A DNA stretch of 64,000 nt, taken from contig CAIQOO010000185.1 in NCBI GenBank assembly GCA_903873485.1, positions 1 through 64,000 on the forward strand. Reading direction: 5' to 3'. Positions 6,860 to 31,841 of this stretch are shown here, piece after piece. The stretch comes from an uncultured beta proteobacterium (lineage in GTDB: Bacteria > Pseudomonadota > Gammaproteobacteria > Burkholderiales > Burkholderiaceae_C). Position 1 is the stretch's first letter, and every line of letters begins with the position of its first letter. The notes below the pieces were generated by a model that worked only from the letters and a program-made list of their open reading frames with translations, was not told the origin of the DNA and did no database searches. The position numbers were made by a program, and so were the translations under genes.

Positions 6860-6863
6860 ACAA

Positions 6864-8765: not shown

Positions 8766-8839
8766 ATTCAATCCTTGTTTAGACATCAGCAGTTGCTATT
8801 AAAAAGTTAAAAATGTGACTCACTTCAGCGCAATCTTCA

Positions 8840-8893
8840 TATAAAAACAGCCTCCAGCCCTTACAGGTAAAGCGCCATCAGCTATGTTTTTCA
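8840..8893 (+). repeat. Dispersed repeat (copy C), between the R-M module and parE
   Basis: AAAACAGCCTCCAGCCCTTA block followed by AAAGCGCCATCAGCTAT and an A/T-rich end. It ends 3 bases before the parE stop and is the right-hand repeat bordering the restriction-modification module. Confidence 0.75.
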
Positions 8894-8896
8894 TAT

Positions 8897-10867: not shown

Positions 10868-10988
10868 AGCGGCGCATTGTAATCACGCAAGCCGCAAAAT
10901 ACTGTATGTAAAGTCAGTTATCGGCGGGTCGTGTCTGGAATCTGGCAGCATTTCGGCACATGGCCCGATGTTTCGTTATATTTCACGG

Positions 10989-12209
10989 ATGTCCAAAATC
11001 GCCAAAAACCTCTCCCTCCAGCAAGTGCTCATCTGCGGTGCCGCCATCGTCACCGTGTCGATGGGCATCCGCCATGGCTTTGGGCTTTGGCTGCAACCGA
11101 TCACCCAGGTGCAAAGCTGGAGCCGTGAAACCTTTGCCTTTGCGCTGGCGATCCAGAACCTGGTGTGGGGGTTTTCCGGCATTTTTGCTGGCATGCTGGC
11201 GGATCGATTTGGCGCATTTCGGGTGATTGTGGCGGGGGCTGCGCTGTATGCGCTGGGGCTGCTGGGCATGGCTTATGCCAGTTCGGCGCTGATGTTCTCA
11301 CTGACCGCCGGGGTGCTGATCGGGCTGGCGCAGGCCGGTACCACCTATGCGATTGTCTATGGGGTGATTGGCCGCAATGTGCCGCCCAGCCAGCGTTCCA
11401 TGGCGATGGGGATTTCGGCGGCAGCGGGTTCGTTTGGCCAGTTTCTGATGGTGCCGACCGAGGGTTTCTTGATCAACAGCCTAGGCTGGCAGCAAGCACT
11501 GGTGGTGCTGGCCTGTGCTTCCCTGTTGATGATGCCGATGGCCTGGTGGCTGCGCGAACCCGATTTCAGCGGCGGTGCCGGGCATTTTCGCGAGCAGTCG
11601 ATTGTGCAGGCGCTGCATGAGGCATTCCAGTACCGCAGTTTCCAGTTGCTGATGGCGGGCTATTTTGTCTGCGGCTTTCAGGTGGTGTTCATTGGTGTGC
11701 ACATGCCGAGTTATCTGAAAGACCAGGGCTTGTCGCCGCAAGTGGCGAGTTATTCGCTGGCGCTGATTGGCCTGTTCAACGTGTTTGGCACTTACGCCGC
11801 CGGCCTGCTGGGGCAACGGCTGCCCAAAAAGTACATCCTGGCCTTCATCTACCTGACGCGGGCGGTGGTGATCAGCGTGTTTTTGCTGGTGCCGCTGTCG
11901 CCGCTGAGCGTTTATGTGTTTTCTGCGGTGATGGGCTTGTTGTGGCTATCGACGGTGCCGCCAACCAATGCGGCAGTGGCGCAGATTTTTGGCGTGGCGC
12001 ATTTGTCGATGCTCGGCGGCTTTGTGTTTTTCAGCCACCAGATTGGCTCGTTTCTGGGGGTCTGGCTCGGCGGCTATCTGTTTGACCGCACCGGCAGTTA
12101 CAACATCGTCTGGTACATCGCGATTGCGCTCGGGGTGATCGCGGCCTTGCTCAATCTGCCGATCAAGGAAGCGGCGATTGTGCGTACCCCGGCACCGCAG
12201 GCCGCCTGA
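10989..12209 (+). CDS. MFS transporter, 12 membrane segments
   Basis: A 406-residue permease of the major facilitator superfamily with about 12 hydrophobic segments and the loop 2-3 signature MLADRFGAFRV, a form of GxLaDrxGrr. MGIRHGFGLWLQPI in the first segment and the overall pattern resemble the oxalate/monocarboxylate branch of MFS, but no substrate can be named. The reading frame is open much further upstream because it shadows parE; the ATG at 10989 (MSKIAKNLSL) fits the first membrane helix, with 10968 as an alternative 7 codons earlier. It is followed after 5 bases by a 41-residue ORF, probably cotranscribed. Confidence 0.85.
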   Translation: MSKIAKNLSLQQVLICGAAIVTVSMGIRHGFGLWLQPITQVQSWSRETFAFALAIQNLVWGFSGIFAGMLADRFGAFRVIVAGAALYALGLLGMAYASSALMFSLTAGVLIGLAQAGTTYAIVYGVIGRNVPPSQRSMAMGISAAAGSFGQFLMVPTEGFLINSLGWQQALVVLACASLLMMPMAWWLREPDFSGGAGHFREQSIVQALHEAFQYRSFQLLMAGYFVCGFQVVFIGVHMPSYLKDQGLSPQVASYSLALIGLFNVFGTYAAGLLGQRLPKKYILAFIYLTRAVVISVFLLVPLSPLSVYVFSAVMGLLWLSTVPPTNAAVAQIFGVAHLSMLGGFVFFSHQIGSFLGVWLGGYLFDRTGSYNIVWYIAIALGVIAALLNLPIKEAAIVRTPAPQAA

Positions 12210-12214
12210 GCCGC

Positions 12215-12340
12215 ATGAAGCCGCTGCACCGGTTCGTGCTGCTGGCTGCCCTGCTGGGCGTGCTGGGTGCGGTGTTTGCCCTGTATGCCCAACCCGACTT
12301 CCTGATGATGCTGGCCAACCAGGTCTGGAGCTGTTTTTAG
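12215..12340 (+). CDS. Small hydrophobic protein, 41 residues, unknown function
   Basis: An ATG-started frame of 41 codons immediately after the MFS gene (5-base gap). It encodes a positively charged start (MKPLHR), a single hydrophobic segment over residues 7-23 and a short polar tail ending in WSCF. It looks like a single-pass membrane or exported peptide. The tight spacing suggests translation from the MFS transcript. No family is recognised, and the evidence is position, membrane-like composition and a clean stop. Confidence 0.5.
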   Translation: MKPLHRFVLLAALLGVLGAVFALYAQPDFLMMLANQVWSCF

Positions 12341-12441
12341 CCCTGCCGCTCCCGGCCACGGTACCCGTCAAGGCTTGTCATGCGGCCATCAGGGCAGCTT
12401 GTCGGCTGCTCGGACGGTTCAGGCAGGCTGGTTAGTCTCGC

Positions 12442-12447
12442 TAAAAT
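12442..12447 (+). promoter_or_regulatory. Possible -10 box of the dapA promoter
   Basis: TAAAAT 35 bases before the dapA ATG in the 136-base gap after the small ORF; the -35 match is weak. Only a candidate. Confidence 0.3.
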
Positions 12448-12476
12448 AGCCGGTTCCACTGTTTCGAGTTCACCAC

Positions 12477-13370
12477 ATGACATTTCCGACGAGCCCCATC
12501 ACTGGCAGCATTGTTGCCATGGTCACCCCGATGCTGCCCGACGGCAGCGTGGATTATCCGTCGCTGCGAAAGCTGATCGACTGGCATATCGCCGAGGGCA
12601 CCGACTGCATTGGCGTGGTCGGCACCACCGGTGAATCGCCCACAGTGAGCATGCAGGAAAACTGCGAGGTGATCCGGGTGTCGGTGGAGCAGGCCGCAGG
12701 GCGCGTGCCGATCATGGCCGGCTGCGGCTCCAATTGCACGGCAGAGGCGATTGAACTGGCCACATTTGCCAAACAAGTCGGGGCCAACTGCCAGTTGCAG
12801 GTGGTGCCTTACTACAACAAACCCACTCAGGAAGGCCAGTACCGGCACTTCAAGGCGATCGCCGAAGCGGTCGATCTGCCGATGGTGTTGTACAACGTGC
12901 CGGGTCGCTCGGTGGCGGATATGGCGCTTGAAACCGCCTTGCGGCTGGCCCAACTGCCCGGCATCATCGGCATCAAGGAAGCCACCGGCAACATCGACCG
13001 GGCGCAGTGGCTGATTCGTGAAGCGCCAAAAGGTTTTGCGATTTACTCGGGCGACGACCCCACCGCCGTGGCGCTGATGCTGTGCGGTGGTCATGGCAAC
13101 ATCAGCGTTACCGCCAATGTGGCACCCCGGCTGATGCATGAACTGTGCATGGCGGCGATTGCTGGCGATGTCAGGCGCGCCATGGCAATCCAGTTCAAGC
13201 TGATGCCGCTGCACAAAAACCTGTTTGTTGAAGCCAATCCAATTCCGGTCAAATGGGCGATGGCCCGCCTGAACCATTGTGGCGGCACCTTGCGCCTGCC
13301 CATGACAGCGTTAACCCCGGCCAACGAATCCGTTGTTGAAGAAGCATTGCGTGCGGTCGGACTGCTGTAA
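12477..13370 (+). CDS. dapA: DapA, 4-hydroxy-tetrahydrodipicolinate synthase
   Basis: Condenses pyruvate with aspartate semialdehyde in the first committed step of lysine and diaminopimelate synthesis in the cytoplasm. The 297-residue TIM barrel shows the Schiff-base lysine Lys167 in [10 protein letters not shown], the catalytic tyrosine Tyr139 in VLYNVPGR, the GTTGES substrate loop (49-54) and the [10 protein letters not shown] segment. It is followed 42 bases later by a bamC-like lipoprotein gene. The dapA-bamC linkage is ancient (bamC was once called dapX), which supports both calls. Confidence 0.96.
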
Positions 13371-13412
13371 TCACCCCGCAGCAGACCTTATTTCTTACCC
13401 GAAGGGACTTTT

Positions 13413-14495
13413 GTGAACCATTCCTCCAGACTTGTGCTGCTTGGCCTGACCGTGGCTTTGGGTGCCTGCTCATCGCTTGAAAGCGACAAAGTCAATTACA
13501 AGAGTGCCGGCAAGGCCCCCTCGCTTGAAGTGCCGCCTGATCTGACGCAGCTTGCGCGCGAGAGCCGCTATGTGGTGCCCGGCACGCCAGTGACCGCATC
13601 GAGCTTTCAGTTGGGACAAACGGCCAGCCAGACCCTGCCCACCGGCATGGTTACGGTGGGGGATGTGCGCATTGAACGTTCTGGCAACCAGCGCTGGCTG
13701 GTGGTTGACCGCCCGGCCGACAAACTGTGGGAACCGGTAAAAGACTTTTGGCAGGAAAACGGATTTTTGCTGGCAATGGACCAGGCCAACCTGGGCATCA
13801 TGGAAACCGACTGGGCCGAAAACCGGGCCAAACTGCCGCAGGACCTGATCCGCAACACGCTGGGCAAGCTGATCGACTCACTCTATTCCACTGGCGAACG
13901 TGACAAGTTTCGCACCCGGCTAGAGCGCAACCCGGCTGGCGGCACCGACATTTTCATCAGCCACCGTGGCATGGTCGAGGTCTATAGCACCACCCAGAAA
14001 GACCAGACCATGTGGCAGCCCCGGGCCGCTGACCCGGAGCTTGAGACCGAGTTTTTGCGGCGCTTGATGGTCAAGCTGGGCGTCTCGCAAGAGCAAGTCA
14101 AGTCGCTGGTGGCGGCTGGCGCGCCCAAGATCAGTTCTCGCGTGACCAGCATCAATGGCCAGCCTGCCTTGCAGATCGATGACGGCTTTGACCGGGCCTG
14201 GCGCCGGGTTGGCTTGTCACTGGACCGCACCAATTTCACCGTCGAAGACCGGGATCGCAGCAAAGGTCTTTATTTTGTGCGCTATGTGGCACCTGTAGCC
14301 GACAAGGCAGAGGCCGGGTTTTTCAGCAAAATGTTCAATTCTGGCAAAGTTGACGGCACGCTGCAGAAGTTTCGGGTGTCGGTGGCCAGTTCGGGCAATC
14401 TGACCACCGTGTCGGTGCAGGCTGCCGATGGCTCAGCCGCCAACGCGGCCGATGCCCAGCGCATTGTGGCTGTGCTGGCCGAAGACCTGAAGTAA
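13413..14495 (+). CDS. bamC: BamC-like outer-membrane assembly lipoprotein (NlpB)
   Basis: Lipoprotein of the BAM complex that inserts beta-barrel proteins into the outer membrane. The start is GTG at 13413, supported by GAAGGGA 6 bases upstream. A short signal peptide ends in the lipobox LGAC, giving a lipidated Cys19. The 360 residues then follow the BamC plan: an unstructured N-terminal segment with PSLEVPPDLTQL, and two helix-grip domains (about 90-210 and 235-360). Its place after dapA matches the classic gene order. The family is diverse in sequence, so the name rests on layout, length and neighbourhood. Confidence 0.85.
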   Translation: MNHSSRLVLLGLTVALGACSSLESDKVNYKSAGKAPSLEVPPDLTQLARESRYVVPGTPVTASSFQLGQTASQTLPTGMVTVGDVRIERSGNQRWLVVDRPADKLWEPVKDFWQENGFLLAMDQANLGIMETDWAENRAKLPQDLIRNTLGKLIDSLYSTGERDKFRTRLERNPAGGTDIFISHRGMVEVYSTTQKDQTMWQPRAADPELETEFLRRLMVKLGVSQEQVKSLVAAGAPKISSRVTSINGQPALQIDDGFDRAWRRVGLSLDRTNFTVEDRDRSKGLYFVRYVAPVADKAEAGFFSKMFNSGKVDGTLQKFRVSVASSGNLTTVSVQAADGSAANAADAQRIVAVLAEDLK

Positions 14496-20566: not shown

Positions 20567-21736
20567 TTACAGTTTCAAGGGGCTGGCGTAGCCCGTCATC
20601 TCAAGGTAGCCGCGCCCAATCGGTTGCCCCTGCTGATTGAGCAAATCGCTCAGGCCTTCCCAGTAAATGGCGCCGGTGGAAGAGCGGCTGTCGAGTTCCT
20701 GATTGTCAAGCACCGCCCGCACGACAAAGCGCTGCCAGGCGGTGTCTGGCGTTGTCTCGGCAGCATTGCCAGCGGCCTTGCGCCGGATATCTAGCGTCCA
20801 TTGCACCGGGTAGCGGGCACCACTGGCCGGGCTTTGCCAGACCCGGTCAATTGTGAAGACCACATCGTCGGGCGCAAACACCAGCGCCTGTGCACTGCCC
20901 TGGGCACGCCAGGAACCGCCAGCCCACAAACTCGAACCGGTTTTGGTGCGCAGCCGAAAAGCGGTCAGCGCACTGCCATCGTTGAGATTCATGCCAATCC
21001 AGTCCCAGCCAACCGCATCCGGATGCAGCAGCGACTCGCTCCACTCATGATCAAGCCAGGCGCGACCGGCAACTGGCATGACCTGACCGGCCAGCGTCAA
21101 CTCGCCTGACACATTCAGGTGCGGCAGGCTGTAGTAATAACTGGCCTGCGCAGCTTCTGGCCCCTTGCGCGACAGGCCCTGATCGCCCTGCAGCAGCAGC
21201 GGCTGGGTTTCTTGCAAGCGCAGCGTGAAGGCGAAGCCTTGCCCCGACACCCGCACCTGGTACGTGCCGTCACGGCGCACCAAGGACCAATCGCGCAAAC
21301 TGACCTCGGTGTCGGTCTCGCTGGCAAAAGCCAGGTCCACCGATGCCTTGCCGGAACTGCGGGCAATGCGCTGGTCGTGCAGCAGGCGCAGGCCGGCCAC
21401 ATCAGTGACGGCGGCGTGGGCAAAAATCAACTGCCGGGCAGCAAACGCCGATGTCATGGACTGGGTTGTGGGCACCCTGGAGCGAAAGAACGTCAACTGA
21501 AAACCAAACAGGCGCGCGGGTGCCTGCAATTCGCCGGTGACATACCACCACTCGATGGCCGTGTCGGGATGACTGCCCAGGTCGCGCGGAAACCGCAGCA
21601 AGCGCCTGGCCAACTTTGGCGCAGTGGCTTCAAGGCGGCTGACCTGCGACTGTGCCAGTTCAGGCCAAACCGGCCCAAGCAGTGCTGCCGCCAGCAGTTG
21701 ACGCCGCTGAAGTCTTGGGAGGAGGGGTGTTTGCAA
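20567..21736 (-). CDS. Secreted lipocalin-like (AttH/CrtC-type) protein
   Basis: A 389-residue protein with an N-terminal signal-like segment (RRQLLAAALLGPVWPELAQS) and the two-lobed lipocalin-like fold of the AttH/CrtC family. Diagnostic segments are AIEWWYVTGELQ near the start, LFGFQLTFFR, and GRAWLDHEWSES with WDWIGMNLNDG in the second lobe. CrtC hydrates carotenoids, but most members without carotenoid genes nearby are of unknown role and often accompany export ABC systems. No crt genes are present here, so a hydratase function is not claimed. Periplasmic or lipid-associated location is inferred. Confidence 0.8.
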   Translation of the reverse strand: MQTPLLPRLQRRQLLAAALLGPVWPELAQSQVSRLEATAPKLARRLLRFPRDLGSHPDTAIEWWYVTGELQAPARLFGFQLTFFRSRVPTTQSMTSAFAARQLIFAHAAVTDVAGLRLLHDQRIARSSGKASVDLAFASETDTEVSLRDWSLVRRDGTYQVRVSGQGFAFTLRLQETQPLLLQGDQGLSRKGPEAAQASYYYSLPHLNVSGELTLAGQVMPVAGRAWLDHEWSESLLHPDAVGWDWIGMNLNDGSALTAFRLRTKTGSSLWAGGSWRAQGSAQALVFAPDDVVFTIDRVWQSPASGARYPVQWTLDIRRKAAGNAAETTPDTAWQRFVVRAVLDNQELDSRSSTGAIYWEGLSDLLNQQGQPIGRGYLEMTGYASPLKL

Positions 21737-21950: not shown

Positions 21951-24900
21951 ATGAAAACACCCGACCAGTGCCAGTCTGAAACCCGCTTTGTCGCCCTGAT
22001 GAGCGAGCTGTTTCAGATGGACGAGGCACAGGCGCTGGACTTTGGCATCTACCGCATCATCCGCCGTCACAATCGTGACATCAAAGCCTATTTGGGCGAA
22101 GTCATCACCAGCCCGGATGGGCAGCAAACCCTGCACGGCGGCACCTTGGCGCAAACGCTCAATGAGGCTTTTGCCGCCAGCGATGACGAAGCACTGGCGG
22201 CAGACAAATTCCGCCTGCAAGACCTGGGAAAGCAGCTTGGCCTGAAGCCTGGCATGACGCAGGCCGAGCGCACCGCCCAACTGGCGCAAGCCGAGGGCAT
22301 ACCCGCCACGCAAGCGCTGGCAGCCGAATACCGCAGCCGCAGTGCCGCCCAGACCGGTCAACAAACCGTGCAGCAAGACCGCACCGAAGTGCTCAACCGG
22401 CTGTACCAGTTCTTTGCCCGCCACTACCAGGACGGCGACTTTATTGTCGAGCGCCGCTACGGCAAGGGCGGTGCACGCTGGGTCAAATCGACCGGCGATG
22501 ACACCGAGTTTCACTGGGCCACCGAGGACATGTACTACATCAAGTCGGGCGACATCTTTACCGACTTTGACTTGCGGCTAAGCTCCGGCCAGGCCTTGCG
22601 GCTGACCGTGGAGCCAATCAGCCTGCAAGCCACCCGCGCCGCCCTCAAGCCCAATGACAAGGCGCATTACGAGCTGGCCAGCGCCACACGGGGCAGCGAC
22701 GGCATCACCACGGTGCTGCTGGGCTACCACAAAGGCACGCAAACCGAAGCGCAAAAGGACAAGATCATCAGCGCCGCCTGCCAGGCGGCGCAGGTCAACG
22801 CCACGCAAGCCGACACTGAACTGCGGCGCTGGCTGGCGGCCTTTATGGCGCGCAACCAGAGCGACTTTTTTATCCACAAACGGCTGCAAGAAGCCCTGAG
22901 CGACGACCTCGATATTTACATCAAGACCGAACTGCTCGATACCGATCAGTTGCTGGCGGGCACGGTCAAGCAGCCCAGCGACCTGCCGCAGCGGGTGTTG
23001 CAGGTGGCGCGCATCGTGCGACAGGTAGGCCGCCAGCTCATCGACTTTTTGGCCACACTGGAGGACTTTCAAAAAAACCTGTGGGAAAAGAAAAAACTGG
23101 TGTTTGATACCCGCTACGTCATCACGCTGGACCGGCTGGCGCGTTTATGCCCGGACTGGCTGGCTGCGCACATCGACCGCATCGTTTTAGGCCAGCGCAG
23201 CGAGTGGCAAGACCTGGGGCTGGGCGACTTTGCCAACGCCGCCGACTGCATGCGCCACACGCCAGGCGATCTGGCCAGCCCGGCTACCACCAGCTACCTG
23301 CCGCTGCCAGTCGATACCGGGCGCTTTGACGCAGACTTTAAATGGTCGCTGCTGGCAGCCGTGACCGCCAGCACAGCACTCGATGAAGCGCTGGACGGCG
23401 TGGCGATTCAGTCGGACAACTGGCAGGCGCTTAATACCTTGCAAGCAAAATACCGCGAACAGGTCAAGTGCATCTATATTGATCCTCCCTACAACACCAA
23501 CAGCAGCGGCATCCCCTACAAAAACGGCTACCGCCACGCCTCGTTTGCCGCGCTGATGCACAACCGCATCGACCAACTGCACCGCCTGCTGCCCGCTGAT
23601 GGCGCGATGTTTGTCAGCATTGACAAGACTGAGCGCACCGTGCTGGAGCAAACGCTGGACGCGGTGTTTGGCGCGGACAACCGGGTCGAAGAGCTGATCT
23701 GGACCATGAACACCAACAACAGCCAAGCCCCCAACTACTCGACCAACCACGAATTTGTGCAGGTCTATGCCCGCCACCGCCCCACGGTAGAGCAAGACAA
23801 GGCGATGTTTCGCGAGCCCAAGCCCGGTTTTGAAGAGGTCATGGCGCTGGTGGCTGAACTCAACCCGACTTACCCGCGCATTGCCGACATCGAAACGGCT
23901 TTGCGCGCCCTGTACGAGCAACACAAACTTGACTACCGCAGCGACGTGGAAGCGCAAGGGCTTGAGCTGGAAGACGAAAAAGACAACGACCCGTGGCGCG
24001 GCCTGTACAACTACAGCCATGCCGAATATCGCGATGCGAACGGCTGTTTGGTGGCAGAAAAAGAAGCGCTGTCTCGGCAGGCACATATCCGGATTTGGCG
24101 AGAAGGTGATATGTCGATGCCCGCTACCAAACAATCCGAAAGCACCCGTGACCCGAACCATCGAAATTGGCGCTTCTACGACCCACCTCATCCCATTTCA
24201 GGTAATCCCTGTCAACACCCAAAACGAGGCTGGAATGTTGGTTATCCTGATGATCCGGATGCACCTGAAAAGCGGAGCTTTCTGGCTTTACTACGTGATC
24301 ACCGGATTGCTTTTGGCGATAGCGAAAAGAAGGTGCCACAAATCAAGAGAATGCTGCACGAGGCCGAAACCAATGTCGGCAAAAGCGTTTTTCGGGACTA
24401 TTCAGACGGCGAAAAACAAACCTCGGCAATGTTTGGCAAGTCCGGTGTCTTTCTTGCACCCAAGCACACCGACTTTGTCTCGCGCTTTATTTTGCAAGGC
24501 TCCAAAGCCGACAGCACCGTGCTGGACTGCTTTGGCGGGTCCGGCAGCACGGCGCACGCGGTCATCAACGTCAACCGGCTGGAAAAGTCCAAGCGCAAAT
24601 TTGTCACGGTCGAAGTCAACCGCTACTTTGACAGCATCATCGTGCCGCGTCTGAAAAAAGCCGCTGCCGCCAATGGCTGGAGCGCTGGCCGCGCCAAAGC
24701 ACTCGACGGCCCCGGCCTGTTTATGCGCATCCAGACCCTGGAGCAATACGACGACACGCTGCAAAACCTGGCGCAAGACACGGCCGTGGGCGACTCGGGC
24801 AACCTGCTAGCCGACATTCCGGCACTCGCCTTGAGCTACAGACTTGATAGCTGCTCGCGCAAGCTGTATATGGGCTTGGAGCACTTTTTCTCCCCATTTG

Positions 24901-25238
24901 GCTACCAATTGCAGCGCGCCGCCGGGGGCGGCAATGCACAGGCCACCGAGGTCGATCTGGTCGAGTCGCTGCCCTATCTGCTGGGGCTGGACGTAACAAG
25001 CCTGTACCGCGAGCCGCAAGGCGTGGTGCTGCTGGGACGCAACCGTCGTGCTGAATCAGTCGCGGTGTTTTTCCGCGACTGCGCTGCCACCAATTCAGCC
25101 GACTGGGTGCAAGCCAAACTGGCGCAACACCCGGCGCAGCGCGTCTATGCCAACAACCCGGCAGCCCTCAGCTTTGCCGGCTGCGACGGTCTCGAAGCCA
25201 TCGAAGCCGTGTTTGCCTTGCAATTCAAAAGGACTTGA
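21951..25238 (+). CDS. Type III-like beta-class adenine DNA methyltransferase (Mod) with a long N-terminal region
   Basis: A 1095-residue methyltransferase. Motif IV is IYIDPPYNTN (DPPY at 511-514) and the SAM site FGGSG is at about 861-865; IV before I is the order of beta-class enzymes such as type III Mod. Type III Mod proteins are usually 550-700 residues. Here about 500 extra residues precede motif IV (starting SELFQMDEAQALDFGIYRII) with no recognisable catalytic motif. A repeat copy (24843-24890) is read in frame near residue 965-980. The ATG at 21951 is chosen; an ATG at 21879 in the same frame adds 24 Ala/Pro-rich residues and neither has a good ribosome site. It is the first gene of the defence locus; helicase and nuclease genes lie at 28163-31841. 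Confidence 0.88.
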   Translation: MKTPDQCQSETRFVALMSELFQMDEAQALDFGIYRIIRRHNRDIKAYLGEVITSPDGQQTLHGGTLAQTLNEAFAASDDEALAADKFRLQDLGKQLGLKPGMTQAERTAQLAQAEGIPATQALAAEYRSRSAAQTGQQTVQQDRTEVLNRLYQFFARHYQDGDFIVERRYGKGGARWVKSTGDDTEFHWATEDMYYIKSGDIFTDFDLRLSSGQALRLTVEPISLQATRAALKPNDKAHYELASATRGSDGITTVLLGYHKGTQTEAQKDKIISAACQAAQVNATQADTELRRWLAAFMARNQSDFFIHKRLQEALSDDLDIYIKTELLDTDQLLAGTVKQPSDLPQRVLQVARIVRQVGRQLIDFLATLEDFQKNLWEKKKLVFDTRYVITLDRLARLCPDWLAAHIDRIVLGQRSEWQDLGLGDFANAADCMRHTPGDLASPATTSYLPLPVDTGRFDADFKWSLLAAVTASTALDEALDGVAIQSDNWQALNTLQAKYREQVKCIYIDPPYNTNSSGIPYKNGYRHASFAALMHNRIDQLHRLLPADGAMFVSIDKTERTVLEQTLDAVFGADNRVEELIWTMNTNNSQAPNYSTNHEFVQVYARHRPTVEQDKAMFREPKPGFEEVMALVAELNPTYPRIADIETALRALYEQHKLDYRSDVEAQGLELEDEKDNDPWRGLYNYSHAEYRDANGCLVAEKEALSRQAHIRIWREGDMSMPATKQSESTRDPNHRNWRFYDPPHPISGNPCQHPKRGWNVGYPDDPDAPEKRSFLALLRDHRIAFGDSEKKVPQIKRMLHEAETNVGKSVFRDYSDGEKQTSAMFGKSGVFLAPKHTDFVSRFILQGSKADSTVLDCFGGSGSTAHAVINVNRLEKSKRKFVTVEVNRYFDSIIVPRLKKAAAANGWSAGRAKALDGPGLFMRIQTLEQYDDTLQNLAQDTAVGDSGNLLADIPALALSYRLDSCSRKLYMGLEHFFSPFGYQLQRAAGGGNAQATEVDLVESLPYLLGLDVTSLYREPQGVVLLGRNRRAESVAVFFRDCAATNSADWVQAKLAQHPAQRVYANNPAALSFAGCDGLEAIEAVFALQFKRT
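24843..24890 (-). repeat. Dispersed repeat (copy H) inside the mod gene, read in frame
   Basis: TTGATAGCTGCTCGCGCAAG and TATGGGCTTGGAGCA blocks with a run of T at the end. It encodes YRLDSCSRKLYMGLEHFF within the Mod C-terminal region. Confidence 0.6.
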
Positions 25239-25240
25239 CC

Positions 25241-25510
25241 ATGCCCACCATCAGCATTTTTTACGGCATTGTGATTGCCATGTATTTCAGGGATGTGCAA
25301 CGGCACCACCTGCCACACATCCATGCGCGTTATCAAAACGCCAACGCGGTTTTTGCCATTGAAGACGGCAGTTTGCTCGACGGCGAATTCCCGCCCAACA
25401 AAACCCGGCTGGTGCAGGCCTGGATCGAAATTCACCGCGAAGACCTGGAGGCTGATTGGTCGTTGGCCGTGACGGGTGAAGAGCCCTTGCGCATTGCGCC
25501 GCTTCAATAA
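25241..25510 (+). CDS. DUF4160 family protein
   Basis: An 89-residue protein with the DUF4160 pattern: ISIFYGIVIAMYFRD, then HHLPHIHARYQ and the acidic/aromatic segment EDGSLLDGEFPP. DUF4160 proteins are commonly paired with DUF2442 proteins, as here, in arrangements that resemble toxin-antitoxin modules, though the biochemical role is not established. It starts 2 bases after the mod stop, so it is translated from the same message. Its placement inside a defence operon suggests either an accessory function or a passenger module. Confidence 0.8.
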   Translation: MPTISIFYGIVIAMYFRDVQRHHLPHIHARYQNANAVFAIEDGSLLDGEFPPNKTRLVQAWIEIHREDLEADWSLAVTGEEPLRIAPLQ

Positions 25511-25520
25511 GGAGGATGCC

Positions 25521-25763
25521 ATGCTGCTCGATGTGGTGAAAGTTCAACCTCAAGCGGACTACCGGCTGCTGCTGGAATTTGAAAATGGCGAGCGACGTGT
25601 TTTTGACATGACCCCATTGCTGGTGCAAAAGCCGTGGCTGCGCATCCAGCCGAGCCATCTATTTACCCGCGCATTTGTCGAAAACGGCACGGTGGCCTGG
25701 CCGGGCAATATCGACATCGCACCGGAAACCTTGTACGACTTGTCCATCCCGGTGCAGCAATGA
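25521..25763 (+). CDS. DUF2442 family protein
   Basis: An 80-residue protein with the DUF2442 pattern: LLDVVKVQPQADYRLLLEFENGERRVFDM, then GTVAWPGNIDIAPETLYD. The ATG at 25521 has a GGAGG ribosome site 5 bases upstream, beginning right after the DUF4160 stop; an in-frame ATG at 25476 inside DUF4160 is rejected. The pairing with DUF4160 is typical. It is followed by repeat copy I and then by the 3' end of the opposite-strand VapC gene. Confidence 0.82.
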   Translation: MLLDVVKVQPQADYRLLLEFENGERRVFDMTPLLVQKPWLRIQPSHLFTRAFVENGTVAWPGNIDIAPETLYDLSIPVQQ

Positions 25764-25774
25764 CAAAGTTAAAT

Positions 25775-25824
25775 CAACTTTGATAGCTGTCAGCGCTTAT
25801 CAGACCTGGGCTAAACAGCAAATG
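25775..25824 (-). repeat. Dispersed repeat (copy I), between DUF2442 and vapC
   Basis: TTTGATAGCTGTCAGCGCTT block followed by GACCTGGGCTAAACAGCAAA. It separates two convergent genes and contains the vapC stop codon. Confidence 0.65.
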
Positions 25825-26215
25825 GATTAACCAGTAGCACACCAAAGCTGGCAAAGTCGCGCGTGTTGCGCGTCACCACTGTCAGGCGATGCACCAGGGC
25901 AGTTGCGGCAATCATGGCATCTTCAAACAGCGCATCAGACTGGTGATGCATCAAACCTGCCCAGCGCCGAAAAATGACCGCATCCATCGGCAAAATGGCG
26001 CGGGTGCTGGCCAGCCGGTCGGCCCATAGCGTGATCTCAAGCGCCTTGGCCGGGTCTGTGTCTCGGGTGATTTCAATGCCGCGTTGAATTTCGCCCAAAG
26101 TGACGGCTGAAATATACACATCAGTCTCTGGTACACGCTCAAGCCAAGCCAGCACAGCGCCATGCGGGCGGGTCTTGCGCAACTCTGAGACCACATTGGT
26201 GTCAAGCAGGTACAT
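25811..26215 (-). CDS. VapC-type PIN-domain toxin
   Basis: A 134-residue PIN-domain ribonuclease. It has the metal-binding acids of the fold: Asp near the start in MYLLDTNVVSELRK, Glu in SAVTLGEIQRGIE, and Asp in LFEDAMIAATALVHRLTVVTRNTRDF. Such toxins cleave RNA when the partner antitoxin is degraded. The ATG at 26215 is chosen; a TTG two codons upstream is possible. It lies 13 bases after the stop of the Phd-type antitoxin gene, on the strand opposite to the surrounding defence genes. Its last codons overlap repeat copy I. Confidence 0.88.
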   Translation of the reverse strand: MYLLDTNVVSELRKTRPHGAVLAWLERVPETDVYISAVTLGEIQRGIEITRDTDPAKALEITLWADRLASTRAILPMDAVIFRRWAGLMHHQSDALFEDAMIAATALVHRLTVVTRNTRDFASFGVLLVNPFAV

Positions 26216-26228
26216 CAACAATGCCGCA

Positions 26229-26483
26229 TCAAAAAATCACCGGCGGGCGGCGCTTTGCGCTGCCACGCTGTGGTAGCGCCAAATCATCTTGTCCTGCACT
26301 GTCAAGCAACATTTGTTTAAGAGATGGCTGACTGTTGGCTTGCAGTTGGCGCCATTGCGCTGCGGATACCAGCACGGCCGCCTCAATGCCGCGCCTGGTG
26401 ACAAGTTGGGGCCCAACGGTGAGGCTGGCTTGCAAAAATTCACTGAACCGTGATTTGGCATCTTGAACCGGCCAAGTCTGCAT
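26229..26483 (-). CDS. Phd/YefM-type antitoxin
   Basis: An 84-residue antitoxin partner of the downstream PIN toxin. The N-terminal MQTWPVQDAKSRFSEFLQAS with LVTRRGIEAAVLVS is the Phd/YefM DNA-binding fold; the tail from about 55 (SLKQMLLDSAGQDDLALPQR) is the toxin-binding segment. The ATG at 26481-26483 has AAGGAA upstream; a longer frame to 26627 is a shadow. The pair likely autoregulates from the 120-base gap shared with the divergent AAA ATPase gene, so toxin control and the second half of the defence locus may share a promoter region. Confidence 0.85.
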   Translation of the reverse strand: MQTWPVQDAKSRFSEFLQASLTVGPQLVTRRGIEAAVLVSAAQWRQLQANSQPSLKQMLLDSAGQDDLALPQRGSAKRRPPVIF

Positions 26484-26604
26484 GGCAATTCCTTCAATGA
26501 CTAGTAGTCTGACCAGTTTAACGGGGAACGCCAGACCAGACAACCGTTTGATAATCAGGCATTGGCGACTCACCGTATCACCCTGTTCAACCCCCCACAG
26601 CCCC

Positions 26605-28158
26605 ATGCAAAAATTTTTCAACACCACCGGCCCGTGTTATCCAGAGCGTCATTACATGGTCGATCCGCTGAAACGGCTCAAAGGCGTTGAGGCGCTGATT
26701 GACCAGGGGCAGTATTTTGTGATTCACGCGCCGCGCCAAAGCGGCAAAACCACCTTTGGCCTGGCACTGATGGACAAGCTCAACGCGCTGGGGCATTACA
26801 CCGTGCTGATCAGCTCGATCCAGCCAGCGGCGCAGGGGCGCGACCCGGTGCAGGCGATGAGAATCGCGGCGCTGTGCATTGACCGCGACAGCCGCCTGTA
26901 TTTGCCGAGTGCCGAATGGGCACCGGCTGTTGTCCGTGACCAGACCTTGCCTGATGACGGCTTGCGTGGCTATTTGCAGCAATGGGCGCTGGCCAACCCC
27001 AAGCCCATCGTGCTGCTGCTCGACGAAGTCGATGCGCTGCAAGACGCCAATTTTTTGGCGCTGCTCTACCAATTGCGCACCGGCTTTACCGGGCGCAACA
27101 AGGGCGGCTTTCCGCACTCGGTGGGCCTGATCGGCCTGCGCGATGTGCGCGACTACAAAATCCGGCTGCGCCCGGATGCCCAAAGCCTGGGCACCAGCAG
27201 CCCGTTCAACGTCAAGGCAGAGTCTTTTTTTATTGACCGGCTGAACCTGAACGACATCGCATCGCTGCTGCAACAACACACTGACGCGACCGGTCAGATT
27301 TTTGAACCCGCCGCCGTGGCAGCTATCGCCGACCTGTCGCAAGGCCAACCCTGGCTGGTCAATGCGTTGGCCTACCATATCGTCAATCGGCTGCTCGATG
27401 GCGACACCACCCAGCCCGTCACCGAGGCGCTGGTGTGGCAGGCCAAAGAGGCGCTGATCTTGCGCCGCGACACCCATCTGGATTCGCTGGTGGACAAGCT
27501 CAAGGAAGACCGTGTGCGCGGCATCGTCAACGCCATCATTGAAGGCACTGAGCTTGTGGATGACCGCTACAACGATGCCTTGAGCTACTGCCAGGACCTG
27601 GGGCTGGTCACCCGCCGGGCACCGATCCGCTTTGCCAACCCGATTTACCAGGAAATCATCCCGCGTGTGATGAGCTATGGCTGGCAGCTCTCCATCCCGC
27701 AAGACATTGCCGACCCGTTTTGGTACATCAAAGGCGGTCGCCTGGACATGGACGCGCTGCTGCAGGCGTTTCAAAAGTTTTACCAACGCCACTCGGAGGC
27801 CTGGCTGTCCAGATACGACTTCCGCGAGGTCGGCCGGCAACTGCTGTTGATGGCCTTTTTGCAACGCATCGTCAATGGCGGTGGCCACATCACCCGCGAG
27901 ATGGCGATTGGCAATGGCCGCGCTGACCTGGTAGTGGAGTTTGGCGGGCAGACGTTTGTGCTGGAACTCAAGCTCAAATACCGCAGTGACAGCCAGCAAG
28001 AGGGCCAGCAGCAACTGGCCCGGTATCTGAACCGCATCGGCCAAAACCACGGCTACCTGCTGCTGTTTGAAACCGACCCGGCCACCGCCTGGGAAGACCG
28101 CATCCAATGGCAACACCTGACGCAAGACGGCAAGGCCATCACGCTGGTCGGCATGTAG
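26605..28158 (+). CDS. AAA-like ATPase with C-terminal PD-(D/E)XK nuclease-like domain
   Basis: A 517-residue protein. The N-terminal ATPase has Walker A HAPRQSGKTTF (41-51) and Walker B IVLLLDEVDAL; these resemble the STAND-like AAA families that lie in defence and mobile loci. The C-terminal segment GNGRADLVVEFGGQTFVLELKLKY has Asp441, Glu454 and Lys456 in the PD-(D/E)XK arrangement, so DNA cleavage is possible. The ATG at 26605 is chosen because CYPERHYMVDP homology starts there; the ribosome site is weak. The helicase gene starts 4 bases after its stop, linking it to the restriction genes, although similar ATPases also occur alone. Confidence 0.75.
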   Translation: MQKFFNTTGPCYPERHYMVDPLKRLKGVEALIDQGQYFVIHAPRQSGKTTFGLALMDKLNALGHYTVLISSIQPAAQGRDPVQAMRIAALCIDRDSRLYLPSAEWAPAVVRDQTLPDDGLRGYLQQWALANPKPIVLLLDEVDALQDANFLALLYQLRTGFTGRNKGGFPHSVGLIGLRDVRDYKIRLRPDAQSLGTSSPFNVKAESFFIDRLNLNDIASLLQQHTDATGQIFEPAAVAAIADLSQGQPWLVNALAYHIVNRLLDGDTTQPVTEALVWQAKEALILRRDTHLDSLVDKLKEDRVRGIVNAIIEGTELVDDRYNDALSYCQDLGLVTRRAPIRFANPIYQEIIPRVMSYGWQLSIPQDIADPFWYIKGGRLDMDALLQAFQKFYQRHSEAWLSRYDFREVGRQLLLMAFLQRIVNGGGHITREMAIGNGRADLVVEFGGQTFVLELKLKYRSDSQQEGQQQLARYLNRIGQNHGYLLLFETDPATAWEDRIQWQHLTQDGKAITLVGM

Positions 28159-28162
28159 CGGC

Positions 28163-30679
28163 ATGGCAACTGCAAAACGCTCGGGCCATGCCCGGCTCAA
28201 ATCGGCCCTGGTGCTGCGCGATGCGCTGGCGGTTGAGTTGGGGCTGGCGCTGCCTGCCGCCATGGCGCAACTGCGTACGACAGAAGAAAACATCGGCAGC
28301 GCCCCGGCGCTGGCTGATGGCCACTATCTGGCGGCATTGGCCTCGGTCTGCGCCGGCGATGTGGCGTATCTGGGTGAACTGGACAGCTTGGTGCGCCAGG
28401 CTGCTTCTCGGGTGCGCTTTGCACCGCGCTATGCGCAATACCTGGCGCTGCTTCTGTTTGCCCACTGGGTGCAGGCGCAGTCTGACGACACCGAGGCTTT
28501 GTTGCAGCGCCTGAATGCTTACCTGGCAGCGCACAAACCCAAAGCCGCTGACGTGGCGGCTGAACTCAAGCCCTTTGAGGCAGCCGACCTGCAACTGGCC
28601 GCCTTCTGGATGGCCACCGCTGCGGGCAAAACCCATGTGCTGCATGTCTGCCTGGCGCTGCTGGATAAGCGCCGCACCTGGCAGCGGTTGCTGCTGATTA
28701 CGCCGTCAGAATCATTGACCCGCCAGCATGCCGAAAAATTGCGTGCGCTGTCTGACTGGGATGTGTTTGCCTATCCTGCGGACGGTGATGCCAGCGCACT
28801 CGGGCGCTTGGCCGCAGACACGGTCATCGTGCTCGACATCAACAAACTCGCCATTGACAAAAAAGGCGACGGCCTGACGCTGCCGACTTCGCTGTTTGGC
28901 GATGGCTGCAACCTGGTGCTGGTCGATGAAGGCCACAAGGGGCAAAAGTCCGAGGCCGGGGTGTGGAAGGCGGTGCAGGCCGATCTGGCCGGCATTAACG
29001 CGCCAATTGCTGCGCAGCGCGGACTGCTGATCGAGTTTTCTGCCACCTTTGGCCAGGTGGTGGAAGGAGAACACGCGCTGGGCCGTTATGCCAAGTCGAT
29101 TGTTTTTGATTACGCCTACGACCGCTTTCACCAGGATCGCTATGGCAAGGACTTCTGGCATGTGCGGGTGCAGTCGGGAGCCGAGGCCAGCGCCGCCACC
29201 CAGCAAGACACCTTGACCGCCGCGCTGCTGGCATATTGGCACCAGGTGACGTGTTTTCGCTCGGCCAGCGCCCGGCAGGCGGCGGTCGAACTGGGTTTGC
29301 AGGTGGCTTCCCCGCTGTGGGTGCTGCTGGGTCTGTCGGTAATTGGCAGCAGCAAAAACGAGGGCGACAAGGCACAGACCTCGGACGTCGTGGATGTGCT
29401 GCGCTTCCTGACCGGCATTCTGGCGCAGCCGGCCAGCCTGGCCGCGAGCCTGCGCCAGTTGGCCCGCACCACCACGGTCGGCACCGACTTGCTGCCGCCC
29501 GAGGTGCGAAGCATTGTCTCGGCGCAGGCTGCCGATGGGTCGGCCAGCCCTGATGAGTCGTCAGCGCTGCAGGTGCTGGCCCAGCGTGTGCTGGCCGACT
29601 GTTTTGGCTGGCAGACGGGTGACAAACCGGTGCTGCGGTTGCTGCGCACGGCCAGCGGCGAACTCGGGCTGGGCCTGTTGCGCGGTGACAGTGCTTGTTA
29701 TTGGGGCGTTGTGAATGTGGGCGATGCCGTCGGGCTGAAAAAAGCGCTGGAGTCGAACGGCCTGGCGGTGCAGGACGATGCGCTGACCGGCTCGCTGTTT
29801 GCCGCGCTGGATGCGCCTGGCAGCGGTCTGAATGTGCTGATTGGCTCGCGCCGTTTTGCCGAGGGCTGGGACAACTTTCGGGCGTCCAGCCTGACGCTGC
29901 TGCGCCTGGGCCAGGGCGAGGGTTCGCTGATCATCCAGATGTTTGGCCGGGTGGTGCGCTTTGCCGGGGTCAATGGCAACGGCAAACGGCTGGAGCGGCC
30001 GCCGCCCGAGCTGGCCCCGTTGCAAACCGCCTATGTGTTTGGCCTGAAGTCGGGCTATCTGGACGTGTTTTTGCAAAGCCTGAGCGACAACGGGGTGCTG
30101 CAGGCGCAGTACATCGACTGCCCCATACAGCGCACGGTGGTGCCTGCGGTGTTGCAGGCGGTGCGGGCCATTGCCCCGACTGCGCGTGAATTTCAGGCGG
30201 TGGTGCTGGGCGGCGACTGGCTGGCCGGCATCAACGAGGTCACGCTGTCGCTGGGTGCCAGCGTGGCCACCTCGCGCCTGAAAGACGGCATGGTCACGGC
30301 ACAGCAGGGCAAGCTCGGGCAGGACATCACCGACGAGTTCAGGCGCTGGCTGGCGCTGATTGACCGCGATGCGCTGTTTTGCGAGCTGGTGGAATGGCGG
30401 CGCAGCCAGCGCTGGTGGAATTTGTCGTTTGACCGCACGGCCATTGACGCGGCACTCAGCAGCAGCAAGTTCAGGCTGATGGGGCTGGATGGCATGTTGC
30501 GCGTGCAGCAAGCCGCCGACCTGCAACGCCTGCAGCGGCTGGCCTTGACGGTGGTACGGCGAATGCTGGAGGCAGCCTACCGCAAACAGGTGAGCCGGCA
30601 CAGCCGCTATGCGCTGGCAGCCGATATTCAGGGCGGCGTGCCAGCCCAGTATTTCAAGGAGGTGTCTGTTGGGAACTAA
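28163..30679 (+). CDS. Type III Res-like SF2 helicase without a nuclease domain
   Basis: An 838-residue superfamily 2 helicase. Walker A is the unusual ATAAGKT (151-157), typical of Res/type I HsdR-like helicases; Walker B is VDEGHKG (254-260), motif III SAT (293-295), motif V RFAEGWDNF and motif VI QMFGRVVRF. Type III Res proteins carry a C-terminal PD-(D/E)XK nuclease; none is visible here. Instead the nuclease motif appears in the next gene, which overlaps its 3' end. The start is the ATG at 28163, 4 bases after the AAA ATPase stop. DNA translocation powered by ATP is inferred. Confidence 0.85.
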   Translation: MATAKRSGHARLKSALVLRDALAVELGLALPAAMAQLRTTEENIGSAPALADGHYLAALASVCAGDVAYLGELDSLVRQAASRVRFAPRYAQYLALLLFAHWVQAQSDDTEALLQRLNAYLAAHKPKAADVAAELKPFEAADLQLAAFWMATAAGKTHVLHVCLALLDKRRTWQRLLLITPSESLTRQHAEKLRALSDWDVFAYPADGDASALGRLAADTVIVLDINKLAIDKKGDGLTLPTSLFGDGCNLVLVDEGHKGQKSEAGVWKAVQADLAGINAPIAAQRGLLIEFSATFGQVVEGEHALGRYAKSIVFDYAYDRFHQDRYGKDFWHVRVQSGAEASAATQQDTLTAALLAYWHQVTCFRSASARQAAVELGLQVASPLWVLLGLSVIGSSKNEGDKAQTSDVVDVLRFLTGILAQPASLAASLRQLARTTTVGTDLLPPEVRSIVSAQAADGSASPDESSALQVLAQRVLADCFGWQTGDKPVLRLLRTASGELGLGLLRGDSACYWGVVNVGDAVGLKKALESNGLAVQDDALTGSLFAALDAPGSGLNVLIGSRRFAEGWDNFRASSLTLLRLGQGEGSLIIQMFGRVVRFAGVNGNGKRLERPPPELAPLQTAYVFGLKSGYLDVFLQSLSDNGVLQAQYIDCPIQRTVVPAVLQAVRAIAPTAREFQAVVLGGDWLAGINEVTLSLGASVATSRLKDGMVTAQQGKLGQDITDEFRRWLALIDRDALFCELVEWRRSQRWWNLSFDRTAIDAALSSSKFRLMGLDGMLRVQQAADLQRLQRLALTVVRRMLEAAYRKQVSRHSRYALAADIQGGVPAQYFKEVSVGN
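30656..30671 (+). promoter_or_regulatory. Strong ribosome site deciding a TTG start
   Basis: AAGGAGGT at 30656-30663, the best Shine-Dalgarno match in the locus, sits 5 bases before TTG at 30669 inside the end of the helicase gene. No ATG or GTG lies in the right place, so TTG is taken as the start of the nuclease gene. Confidence 0.8.
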
Positions 30680-31841
30680 AAAACCGGCGCAGCCGGTGCA
30701 AGACGGCTTGTTTGGCACCTTGGTGGGCGCGGGTGGCCTGATGTGCCCGGACATCAGCGGCATGCCGCTGATTGTTGACCCGCGTGGCGAACTGGAGGTG
30801 ATGGCACCGGGCAGCGTCTATCAGCCATTGCTGCTCGAACCTCGGCAAGCCAGCGTCGTCATCGGCCCTGGCTGGCTGGATGGGCACGAAGAGGCCTTTG
30901 TGCGCGACCTGATCAAGTGGCTGTACCCGGCGGGCGACCATCCAAAAAGCGTCAACACCCCGTTGCAATGGGGCGGCAAAGAAATCTGGCTCAAGCGCAA
31001 TCTGGAAAAACGCGACGAGTCGTTTCGGCTGCGGGTCGATGACTCGGACTGGTATTACCCGGACTTTATTGTCTGGATCATTGACCATGCCACACGCACC
31101 CAGACCTTTGGTTTTGTTGACCCCAAAGGGCTGACGCTGGGCGCCCCCGGTGGCTGGAGCGACTACAAGGTGATTTGCACCCTGTATGCGCCGCATCTGG
31201 TCGAGCGGCAATTGGCAGCCGCCGGCCAGAGCGTGATCTATGAGGGCCATCCGTGGACATTTCGGGTGCGCGGCCTGCTGCTGTCCAACTCCACTCATGC
31301 CGCGCTGGCGGCACAGGCCAAGTTTGATGTGCGCAACACGGATGGGCAAAAACAGCCGCCCAAAGAGGCCGACTTTGGCCGGGGCCGCATTGTGTTTCAA
31401 AGCCAGAACAGCCATGACCGCGCCTATATTGCCAAGGTGTTGCAGCGCCTGACCGAGGACAGCGAGATCGACCACCTGCTGCAACAGACCGCGCTGCTGT
31501 TTGACCCGCAGCACTATTTCACCCCATCAGGCGAGGCCGGGCACGACCTGGCGCTGCGCTTTGATGAGGGTCACCCCAACGAATCCAAATTTGTGCAGGC
31601 GCTGCTGGAAGACTACTTGGTGCCCGATGCCGCCGGCCAGCATGGCACCTGGTGCCGCAACAACCGGCGCGGTCAGTTGATGGACTACGCCAAAAAAGGC
31701 GGCTTGTTGGGTTTTGGTGCCGAAAAAGTAGCCGACCTGCTGAACAACCCTGCTCCCTGCGAAACGCTCTGGCAGCGCAGGCATCCAGTTGCCATGCTCA
31801 AGCCAGTGGTCAAAACAGGCTGCCAGAAACAATACCCTTAA
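30669..31841 (+). CDS. Stand-alone PD-(D/E)XK nuclease of the type III-like locus
   Basis: A 390-residue protein of no named family. Residues 129-154 read YYPDFIVWIID, a spacer, then FGFVDPKG: Pro131-Asp132 and Asp151-x-Lys153 form a PD-(D/E)XK nuclease centre, with a supporting acidic helix at HEEAFVRDLIKWL (73-85). In ordinary type III systems this domain is the C-terminus of Res. The gene starts from TTG with a strong ribosome site and overlaps the helicase stop by 11 bases, so the two are translated together, as expected of subunits of one enzyme. The C-terminal part (about 200-390) shows no known motif. Confidence 0.8.
   Translation: MGTKKPAQPVQDGLFGTLVGAGGLMCPDISGMPLIVDPRGELEVMAPGSVYQPLLLEPRQASVVIGPGWLDGHEEAFVRDLIKWLYPAGDHPKSVNTPLQWGGKEIWLKRNLEKRDESFRLRVDDSDWYYPDFIVWIIDHATRTQTFGFVDPKGLTLGAPGGWSDYKVICTLYAPHLVERQLAAAGQSVIYEGHPWTFRVRGLLLSNSTHAALAAQAKFDVRNTDGQKQPPKEADFGRGRIVFQSQNSHDRAYIAKVLQRLTEDSEIDHLLQQTALLFDPQHYFTPSGEAGHDLALRFDEGHPNESKFVQALLEDYLVPDAAGQHGTWCRNNRRGQLMDYAKKGGLLGFGAEKVADLLNNPAPCETLWQRRHPVAMLKPVVKTGCQKQYP

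Follow-up and report, generated by a model that had tools for sequence, protein, structure and literature searches.

Can the restriction subunit of a type III restriction-modification system exist in nature as two proteins, a motor and a cutter, or does a locus of this appearance only hold a broken res gene? The question is raised by positions 21951–31841 of a 64,000-nucleotide (nt) stretch of DNA from an uncultured beta proteobacterium (contig CAIQOO010000185.1; this whole stretch is called the window below). There, a gene for a helicase (Hel) is followed by a separate gene for a nuclease (Nuc), a gene for a DNA methyltransferase (Mod) lies upstream, and several small genes, which we call cargo, fill the interval between mod and hel. 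An original prediction, made from the letters of the DNA, had described a type III-like locus with a split Res, and every gene that it listed is present (Table 1). Our own reading, to which we give a probability of roughly 0.78, is that the locus encodes a type III-like restriction-modification system whose Res consists of two subunits, with a plug-in slot that accepts addiction or backup modules.

The split is not peculiar to the window. When 84,980 species genomes were scanned with Hel, at least 18 loci were found, a lower bound given that six short Hel peptide patterns were used once, and viral contigs add four close split loci. Hel is 51–71% identical across 18 public loci and Nuc 42–64% across 16. 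As to whether the nuclease gene always follows the helicase gene, as the original prediction had asked, Nuc lies directly 3′ of Hel as an open reading frame (ORF) of its own in all 21 loci that show both, the window included, though the cellular loci were found through Hel. This count takes in L020, whose Hel is in two ORFs, and L055, whose Hel is cut, neither of which enters the trees, while L008 and L019, cut inside Hel by contig ends, stand outside it. The counts overstate the number of independent cases: L049, L050 and L055 are nearly identical, L009 is closely related to L015, and a single metagenome-assembled genome supplied both L005 and L008. It could still be argued that the split reflects recent decay of one res gene, or an error of sequencing, in the genome of the window, in which a fused cousin does exist, but the same split is found in 21 loci with the catalytic residues kept, and we give this explanation almost no credence; a recent pseudogene or frameshift artefact was rejected given that the 21 loci agree. 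The constant order of the two genes and the single clade formed by the split helicases show that the split is not accidental; the division of Res is genuine and is kept in hosts that are far apart.

The manner in which the two genes meet is also largely kept. The start of nuc overlaps the end of hel in 19 of the 21 loci, nuc is in the +1 frame relative to hel in 18, and an AAGGA motif lies 8–9 nt before the nuc start, inside the C-terminal codons of hel, in 18. In the window, AAGGAGG (30656–30662) lies 6–8 nt before the TTG of nuc, which confirms the separate TTG-started gene, the overlap and the strong ribosome site that had been predicted. For L009 and L015, the junctions were counted from an ATG one codon upstream, with an overlap of 17 nt; L010 and L017 have GGAGG 6 nt before the nuc start instead of AAGGA; and L011 has no clear ribosome site, an uncertain nuc start and a stop between the two genes. 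Nuc start codons other than that of the window were chosen from the ORFs and the Nuc alignment. The overlap and the ribosome site suggest translational coupling. The shared +1 frame and the short overlap would also fit a programmed +1 frameshift at the end of hel that yields some fused Res, so that the split is partial, but L013 and L017 are in another frame, the gap in L017 is 65 nt, the genes of L011 are separated by a stop, inspection by eye shows no slippery site common to the loci, and 20 of the 21 retain a nuc start preceded by a motif like a ribosome site. We consider such a frameshift very unlikely.

Profile–profile comparison with 27 fused cousins shows what was divided. Hel aligns to columns 19–858 of the fused Res (E 1e-106), and residues 49–263 of Nuc align to columns 894–1070 (probability 99.4, E 2.5e-21), with the YPDF...FVDPKGL of Nuc falling on the same motif of the fused Res. 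Given that Hel and Nuc tile the fused-Res profile, Res has been divided in a linker with every catalytic part kept, which bears out the predicted split. In agreement with this, the PADLOC REase_III model (1154 positions) that Hel matches is also matched weakly by Nuc (8.8e-05, model positions 999–1051). The AAGKT, DEGH, SAT and GRVVR columns of Hel are invariant in 15 rows, and the YPDF...DPKG of Nuc is invariant in 17 of 17 sequences. Thus, Hel has the SF2 helicase-type ATPase of a type III Res, and a PD-(D/E)XK nuclease is encoded within the locus; the feature that fails is the fusion of the nuclease to the Res C-terminus, the nuclease being a separate ORF throughout. We would therefore expect the locus to work like a type III system, yet it is no ordinary member. 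The original prediction knew of no named defence system with this exact gene set, and none of the PADLOC, Pfam or NCBIfam models that were matched describes the split form. Among the papers listed by our term searches of the open-access (PMC) literature, none was seen to describe a type III Res whose helicase and nuclease are encoded separately.

Residues 1–48 and 264–390 of Nuc have no counterpart in the local alignment with fused Res, and these extra ends are a feature of the split system, unlike the fused plasmid Res; the Nuc of L010 and L012 (303 and 313 amino acids, aa) are without most of the C-terminal tail. Searches of the Protein Data Bank (PDB) with profiles gave no relative of Hel at 0.01 and a single match of Nuc, at 0.094, whose name is unrelated. 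Foldseek with Nuc found nothing at E≤0.001; the best structural match is Bax1, a nuclease solved with an XPB helicase, and a HamAB entry ranks lower among the matches. It is conceivable that the split makes Nuc a regulated, dissociable effector, like HamA/HamB or XPB/Bax1; Hel would then act as the sensor that retains Nuc, and the released nuclease would cut DNA broadly and not at a set distance from the Mod site. The unmatched ends of Nuc, these structural matches (none at E≤0.001) and the existence of Hachiman, a published nuclease–helicase pair in the part of the source available, are all consistent with this possibility, which we nonetheless regard as unlikely.

The origin of the split can be placed on a tree. 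In an IQ-TREE phylogeny of 48 helicases, from which L040 was left out as its Res is cut by a contig end, the 21 split sequences lie on one side of one branch (100% SH-aLRT), corresponding to one change. The other side holds 27 fused rows with open frames of 1042–1271 aa, 26 of which have a BLAST match to Nuc in the same frame (L041 has none). The tree program warned of long branches between the split group and L031/L041, which makes it uncertain which fused sequence is the closest relative. We infer that fusion was the ancestral state, since the fused form is broad, occurring on archaeal and bacterial plasmids. The split form is also rare: Hel matches at E≤1e-50 occurred in 9 of 369 class, 6 of 398 phylum and 12 of 399 family genomes (overlapping samples, G000 and some others being in more than one), and among these only the locus of the window is split. 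The 18 cellular split records comprise three from Myxococcota and one from Nitrospirota, the other labelled ones being from Pseudomonadota; all are metagenome bins, and since binning can err, so may these host labels.

Three individual relatives deserve separate mention. The genome of the window has a second relative, which is fused (L021, G000:C209:1-11422, about 6220–9555 on the minus strand), with a Res of 1111 aa that overlaps an upstream Mod cut by the contig end. On a contig classed as viral, L054 (about 7151–14305, on the same contig as L048) holds a split system followed, by eye, by McrB- and McrC-type genes and, further on, by a phage tail-like gene. Finally, in the Thermus phage phiLo (L078, 1056–6262), there is a Res-like protein without a nuclease end, with Mod fragments nearby by eye, and this relative looks decayed rather than split.

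Searches that started from Nuc instead of Hel led to the same partners. The Nuc profile matched four loci on viral contigs, all with Hel in front, as well as 12 of 389 family genomes and 4 of 388 phylum genomes (overlapping samples). Beyond the Nuc of the window, 14 places matched, 13 of them inside frames of 947–1278 aa, and the fourteenth (G1075) is a 725-aa frame, cut short by the end of its contig, to which Hel matches as well. Thus, across the viral contigs and these family and phylum genomes, no Nuc was found outside a Hel or Res context; an association with unrelated neighbours, which would have counted against the original prediction, was seen neither here nor in the 21 loci. A plasmid search with the Nuc protein of the window was empty at 1e-4.

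The Mod protein completes the resemblance to type III systems, its profile matching EcoP15I Mod (PDB 4zcf) at 2.1e-53. The catalytic DPPYN (511–515) precedes the S-adenosylmethionine (AdoMet) motif FxGSG (861–865) in 10 of 10 unbroken aligned Mods, which is the beta-class order of type III (DPPY before FxGxG); two-ORF Mods (L007, L016, L050), contig-cut Mods and the Mod of L048 were left out of this alignment. About 480 aa lie ahead of the methyltransferase core, and a variable region lies inside it: downstream of motif IV, the sequence is highly variable, with shorter versions in L004, L008, L011 and L018, which would fit target recognition. The predicted Mod structure (pLDDT 57) was too poor for a structure search. 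Although the enlarged Mod had been taken as a peculiarity of this locus, fused cousins carry Mods of 929–1036 aa on three viral contigs, 989–1113 aa on five plasmids and 1033–1139 aa in eleven genome stretches, and the PADLOC MTase_III model itself spans 1057 positions. The long N-terminal half is therefore a trait of the wider family and not peculiar to the split form.

The genes between mod and hel are far less constant than the split. The interval was judged in 20 loci; L005, L020 and L055 show no such interval, L006 has cargo but its Mod is cut off, and L017 shows only the end of Mod. No cargo is present in eight of the 20 (L003, L010, L012, L013, L014, L048, L049, L050). DhiT/DhiA cargo is found in six (the window, L004, L006, L007, L008, L018), DUF1016/YhcG cargo in three (L009, scanned; L015 and L019, alike by eye) and UPF0175 with DUF3368 in one (L011), DhiTA and DUF1016 being the commonest cargo of split loci. 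The remaining two have a glyoxalase-like gene with a second ORF (L017) and a single ORF without assignment (L016). The idea that the exact gene set of the window forms one system thus has to be given up, and a fixed mod/DUF4160/DUF2442/AAA system was rejected given that the cargo varies between loci.

Mapped onto a tree of 20 rows, the six cargo states require at least eight changes, where the minimum possible is five, and filled versus empty needs six; shuffled cargo labels need 10.5 changes on average, and as few as eight in 5 of 200 shuffles. Well-supported branches alone force three changes for the absence of cargo and three for DhiTA, and many forks are weak. Taken singly, these two labels are about as scattered as shuffled ones (226 and 265 of 500 shuffles were as low). 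The cargo thus comes and goes, and the number of exchanges is poorly fixed. Two DhiTA lineages can be told apart, with toxins 57–67% identical among the window, L004, L006 and L007 (A-type), 80% between L008 and L018 (B-type) and 38–42% between the two. L007 carries an extra B-type DhiA antitoxin (9732–10010) beside its A-type DhiT/DhiA pair; this antitoxin shares 84% identity with its counterpart in L008, a close relative, and is probably the trace of a cassette replacement caught half way.

The cargo nevertheless sits at one and the same junction. In the eight empty loci, the stop of mod runs into the start of hel or ends at most 2 nt before it (by eye), and in nine of the 12 filled loci the cargo fits closely at both ends, starting 0–11 nt after the mod stop and ending between 16 nt inside hel and 4 nt before it; the hel start codon is uncertain in L007 and L008, as is the start of the cargo in L011. 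The cargo of L016 and L017 is not close-fitting, with about 320–370 nt without a recognised gene before hel, and the remaining filled locus, L006, shows no end of mod. Relatives of the AAA and DhiT proteins of the window are found on plasmids. It is thus possible that the cargo is unrelated hitchhiking, in which toxin–antitoxin pairs at a tolerated site stabilise themselves and not the restriction system. The differences between close relatives, the frequent absence of cargo, the scatter of the DhiTA and empty labels, the plasmid relatives and the loose placement in L016 and L017 all favour hitchhiking, but the close fit at one and the same junction and the presence of known defence or candidate modules at the same place in fused cousins speak for a link with restriction. 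Although we do not prefer hitchhiking, we regard it as the most serious of the alternatives.

In fact, 12 of the 27 fused cousins have another ORF directly before Res (by eye), with Mod further upstream in ten of these and none found in L086 and L092; in L047, Mod is directly adjacent to the fused Res. The PADLOC scan covered nine inserted proteins, encoded by seven of the cousins (L084, L085, L086, with no visible Mod, L087, L088, L090 and L093), L089 and L092 lying outside it. The inserts were assigned to AAA with DUF4276 (HEC-01A/B), RhuM (PDC-S05) twice, Fic (SoFic), AbiJ-like (PDC-S32), NsnB, NsnC and a zeta-toxin-like protein (weak match only), and an ORF between Mod and Res in L091 has no assignment. 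From these assignments, the mod–res gap houses defence-type modules in the wider type III family too. The expression “guilt-by-embedding” is reportedly found in a 2024 preprint by Payne. As far as the available parts of the sources go, DarTG2 is embedded between hsdS and hsdR of a type I restriction system (PMC12255303), PrrC in the type I system EcoprrI (PMC12707154), and toxin or defence modules embedded in BREX have also been published (PMC12839542). The cargo half of our finding is thus less novel, given these reports and the gaps of the fused cousins. The AAA ATPase and DUF4276 pair lies in the mod–res gap of L093, and L094 and L095 are alike by eye. Immediately upstream of mod, L087 and L090 have a helicase gene of 959–976 aa, as do, by eye, L091 and L093; in L087 and L090 it is DrmD-like according to PADLOC, resembling a third ATPase gene described by Murray (2021).

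The DUF4160 and DUF2442 genes of the window, treated as unknowns by the original prediction, belong to the domain pair of dhiTA, a functional toxin–antitoxin system of Dickeya, in both Dickeya and E. coli, whose toxin inhibits growth (PMC8198452, as far as its available text goes). The toxin gene comes first, as in that text. DhiT of the window scores 88.7 bits with the NCBIfam DhiT model, under its cut-off of 100, and DhiA scores 17.7 bits against a cut-off of 200; by these scores, they are of the same domain families as DhiTA and not the same equivalog. Among the papers listed by our term searches of the open-access (PMC) literature, none was seen to place DhiTA between mod and res.

The closest known counterparts are the two-gene type III systems with a long Mod (PADLOC MTase_III PDLC03646 and REase_III PDLC03654) on plasmids in Natronosalvus, Hymenobacter, Blastomonas, Haloprofundus and Athalassotoga. 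They share the long Mod, and in 27 other fused proteins the helicase and the PD-(D/E)XK core of Res can be aligned to Hel and Nuc, but the Res of the plasmid systems is one protein of 1022–1112 aa, as opposed to 838 and 390 aa in the window. EcoP15I and EcoP1 likewise have a beta-class Mod, an SF2 motor and a PD-(D/E)XK nuclease, but the Mod of the window is about 375–405 residues longer in front (from alignment offsets), its nuclease is unfused, and modules sit between mod and hel. The m4C type III systems of Murray 2021 (PMC8259958) resemble the locus in carrying an extra gene, for a third ATPase 5′ of mod, but in the available part of that paper the nuclease lies in the C-terminal part of Res and no divided Res is reported. 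The DarTG2 and PrrC cases, as their sources describe them in part, share a toxin–antitoxin or abortive module inside a restriction operon, but they are type I, whereas the module of the window lies between mod and a split res. Hachiman HamAB resembles the locus in having helicase and nuclease as separate partner proteins. A PADLOC scan of eight window proteins at 1e-3 gave no Hachiman, BREX, Hma or DISARM match (among the 25 best of 28 rows for Mod and all rows for the others), and membership in these systems was rejected for lack of a model match. To our knowledge, Hachiman has no methyltransferase.

Table 1. Genes and junction of the split type III-like locus (window coordinates)
Feature	Position	Strand	Matches and remarks
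Mod, beta-class DNA aminomethyltransferase, 1095 aa	21951..25238	+	PF01555 2.8e-24; PADLOC MTase_III 5.3e-106
DhiT-like toxin (DUF4160)	25241..25510	+	PF13711 1.8e-23; start 2 nt past Mod stop
DhiA-like antitoxin (DUF2442)	25521..25763	+	PF10387 2.1e-13; start codon picked by eye
VapC-like PIN toxin, reversed	25811..26221	-	PF01850 1.9e-17
Phd/YefM antitoxin, reversed	26229..26483	-	PF02604 3.3e-14; start codon picked by eye
AAA_35 ATPase, PD-(D/E)XK-like C-terminus	26608..28158	+	PF14516 1e-6; end 4 nt before Hel
Hel, motor part of Res (SF2 helicase), 838 aa	28163..30679	+	PF04851 1e-8; PADLOC REase_III 6.1e-60
Hel/Nuc junction: AAGGAGG in last Hel codons, 11-nt overlap	30656..30679	+	
Nuc, cutter part of Res (PD-(D/E)XK nuclease), 390 aa	30669..31841	+	start TTG

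Some gene calls call for comment. The ORF around mod, whose ATG is at 21951, is open from 21879 (1119 aa). For the DUF2442 protein, ATG 25521 is the probable start. The AAA protein is likely to begin at ATG 26608 and not at 26482, because 9 of 10 listed plasmid homologues (14 matched) align from query residue 41–42, the remaining one aligning from residue 28; the listed homologues are 43–45% identical and annotated as AAA/ATP-binding or hypothetical. Its C-terminus has weak matches to PDDEXK_9 (PF08011) and PDDEXK_3 (PF13366), both under the Pfam cut-off. Given that the reversed Phd/VapC pair sits between the DhiA and AAA genes, the AAA, hel and nuc genes probably need a promoter of their own within 26484–26607; a promoter consensus scan of 25700–26700 found none.

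Downstream of nuc lies an iscR-like gene at 31963 (named by eye), and upstream of mod an opposite-strand ORF (20567–21736). Matches to the iscR-like gene occur in 19 of 20 genus genomes, that of the window included, and a UvrB-like gene (by eye) precedes iscR in 9 of 9 other genus loci examined. The gene order around the locus of the window is thus not found in these nine relatives, and they offer no clean empty site for comparison. Elsewhere in the window, positions 6001–10000 have a G+C content of 45–51%, against about 60% over most of the window, which suggests another acquired stretch.

Type III systems methylate one strand of an asymmetric site, cut about 25–27 bp away, require two inverted sites and act as a Mod2Res1 complex. 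For the split system, the sequences show the gene order, the split and its conservation, the intact catalytic residues, the homology to Mod and Res and the variation of the cargo, from which we infer how methylation, complex formation, cleavage, defence and cargo function would proceed. Mod would use its variable region to recognise a short asymmetric site, which it would methylate (N6-A or N4-C), while Hel and Nuc, probably made in a set ratio because their genes overlap, would join Mod to form a split Res. Hel would use ATP and begin sliding on unmethylated DNA, and Nuc would cut near the site when complexes meet. The mod–hel junction would be a plug-in place for small modules, in the window DhiT/DhiA followed by the reversed Phd/VapC pair and the AAA nuclease, which would most likely provide addiction or backup growth arrest upon loss or inhibition of restriction. 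Going further, and more doubtfully, the locus may represent a distinct type III subtype with a coupled but separate motor and nuclease, in which the cutter is separately regulated or released and a port swaps guard modules (toxin–antitoxin, DUF1016) that are fired when restriction is lost or blocked; this is a tentative proposal.

If the two-subunit reading is correct, its value lies in what it makes separable. The coupling of a type III motor to a distant cut has so far been studied in one fused protein, and a natural two-protein version would allow motor and cutter to be mixed, titrated and mutated separately. Model-based annotation probably calls such a locus an ordinary type III system through Hel, with a weak match or none for Nuc. 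Finally, the filled and empty loci, together with the A- and B-type DhiTA, would offer natural pairs for asking if embedded toxins guard restriction.

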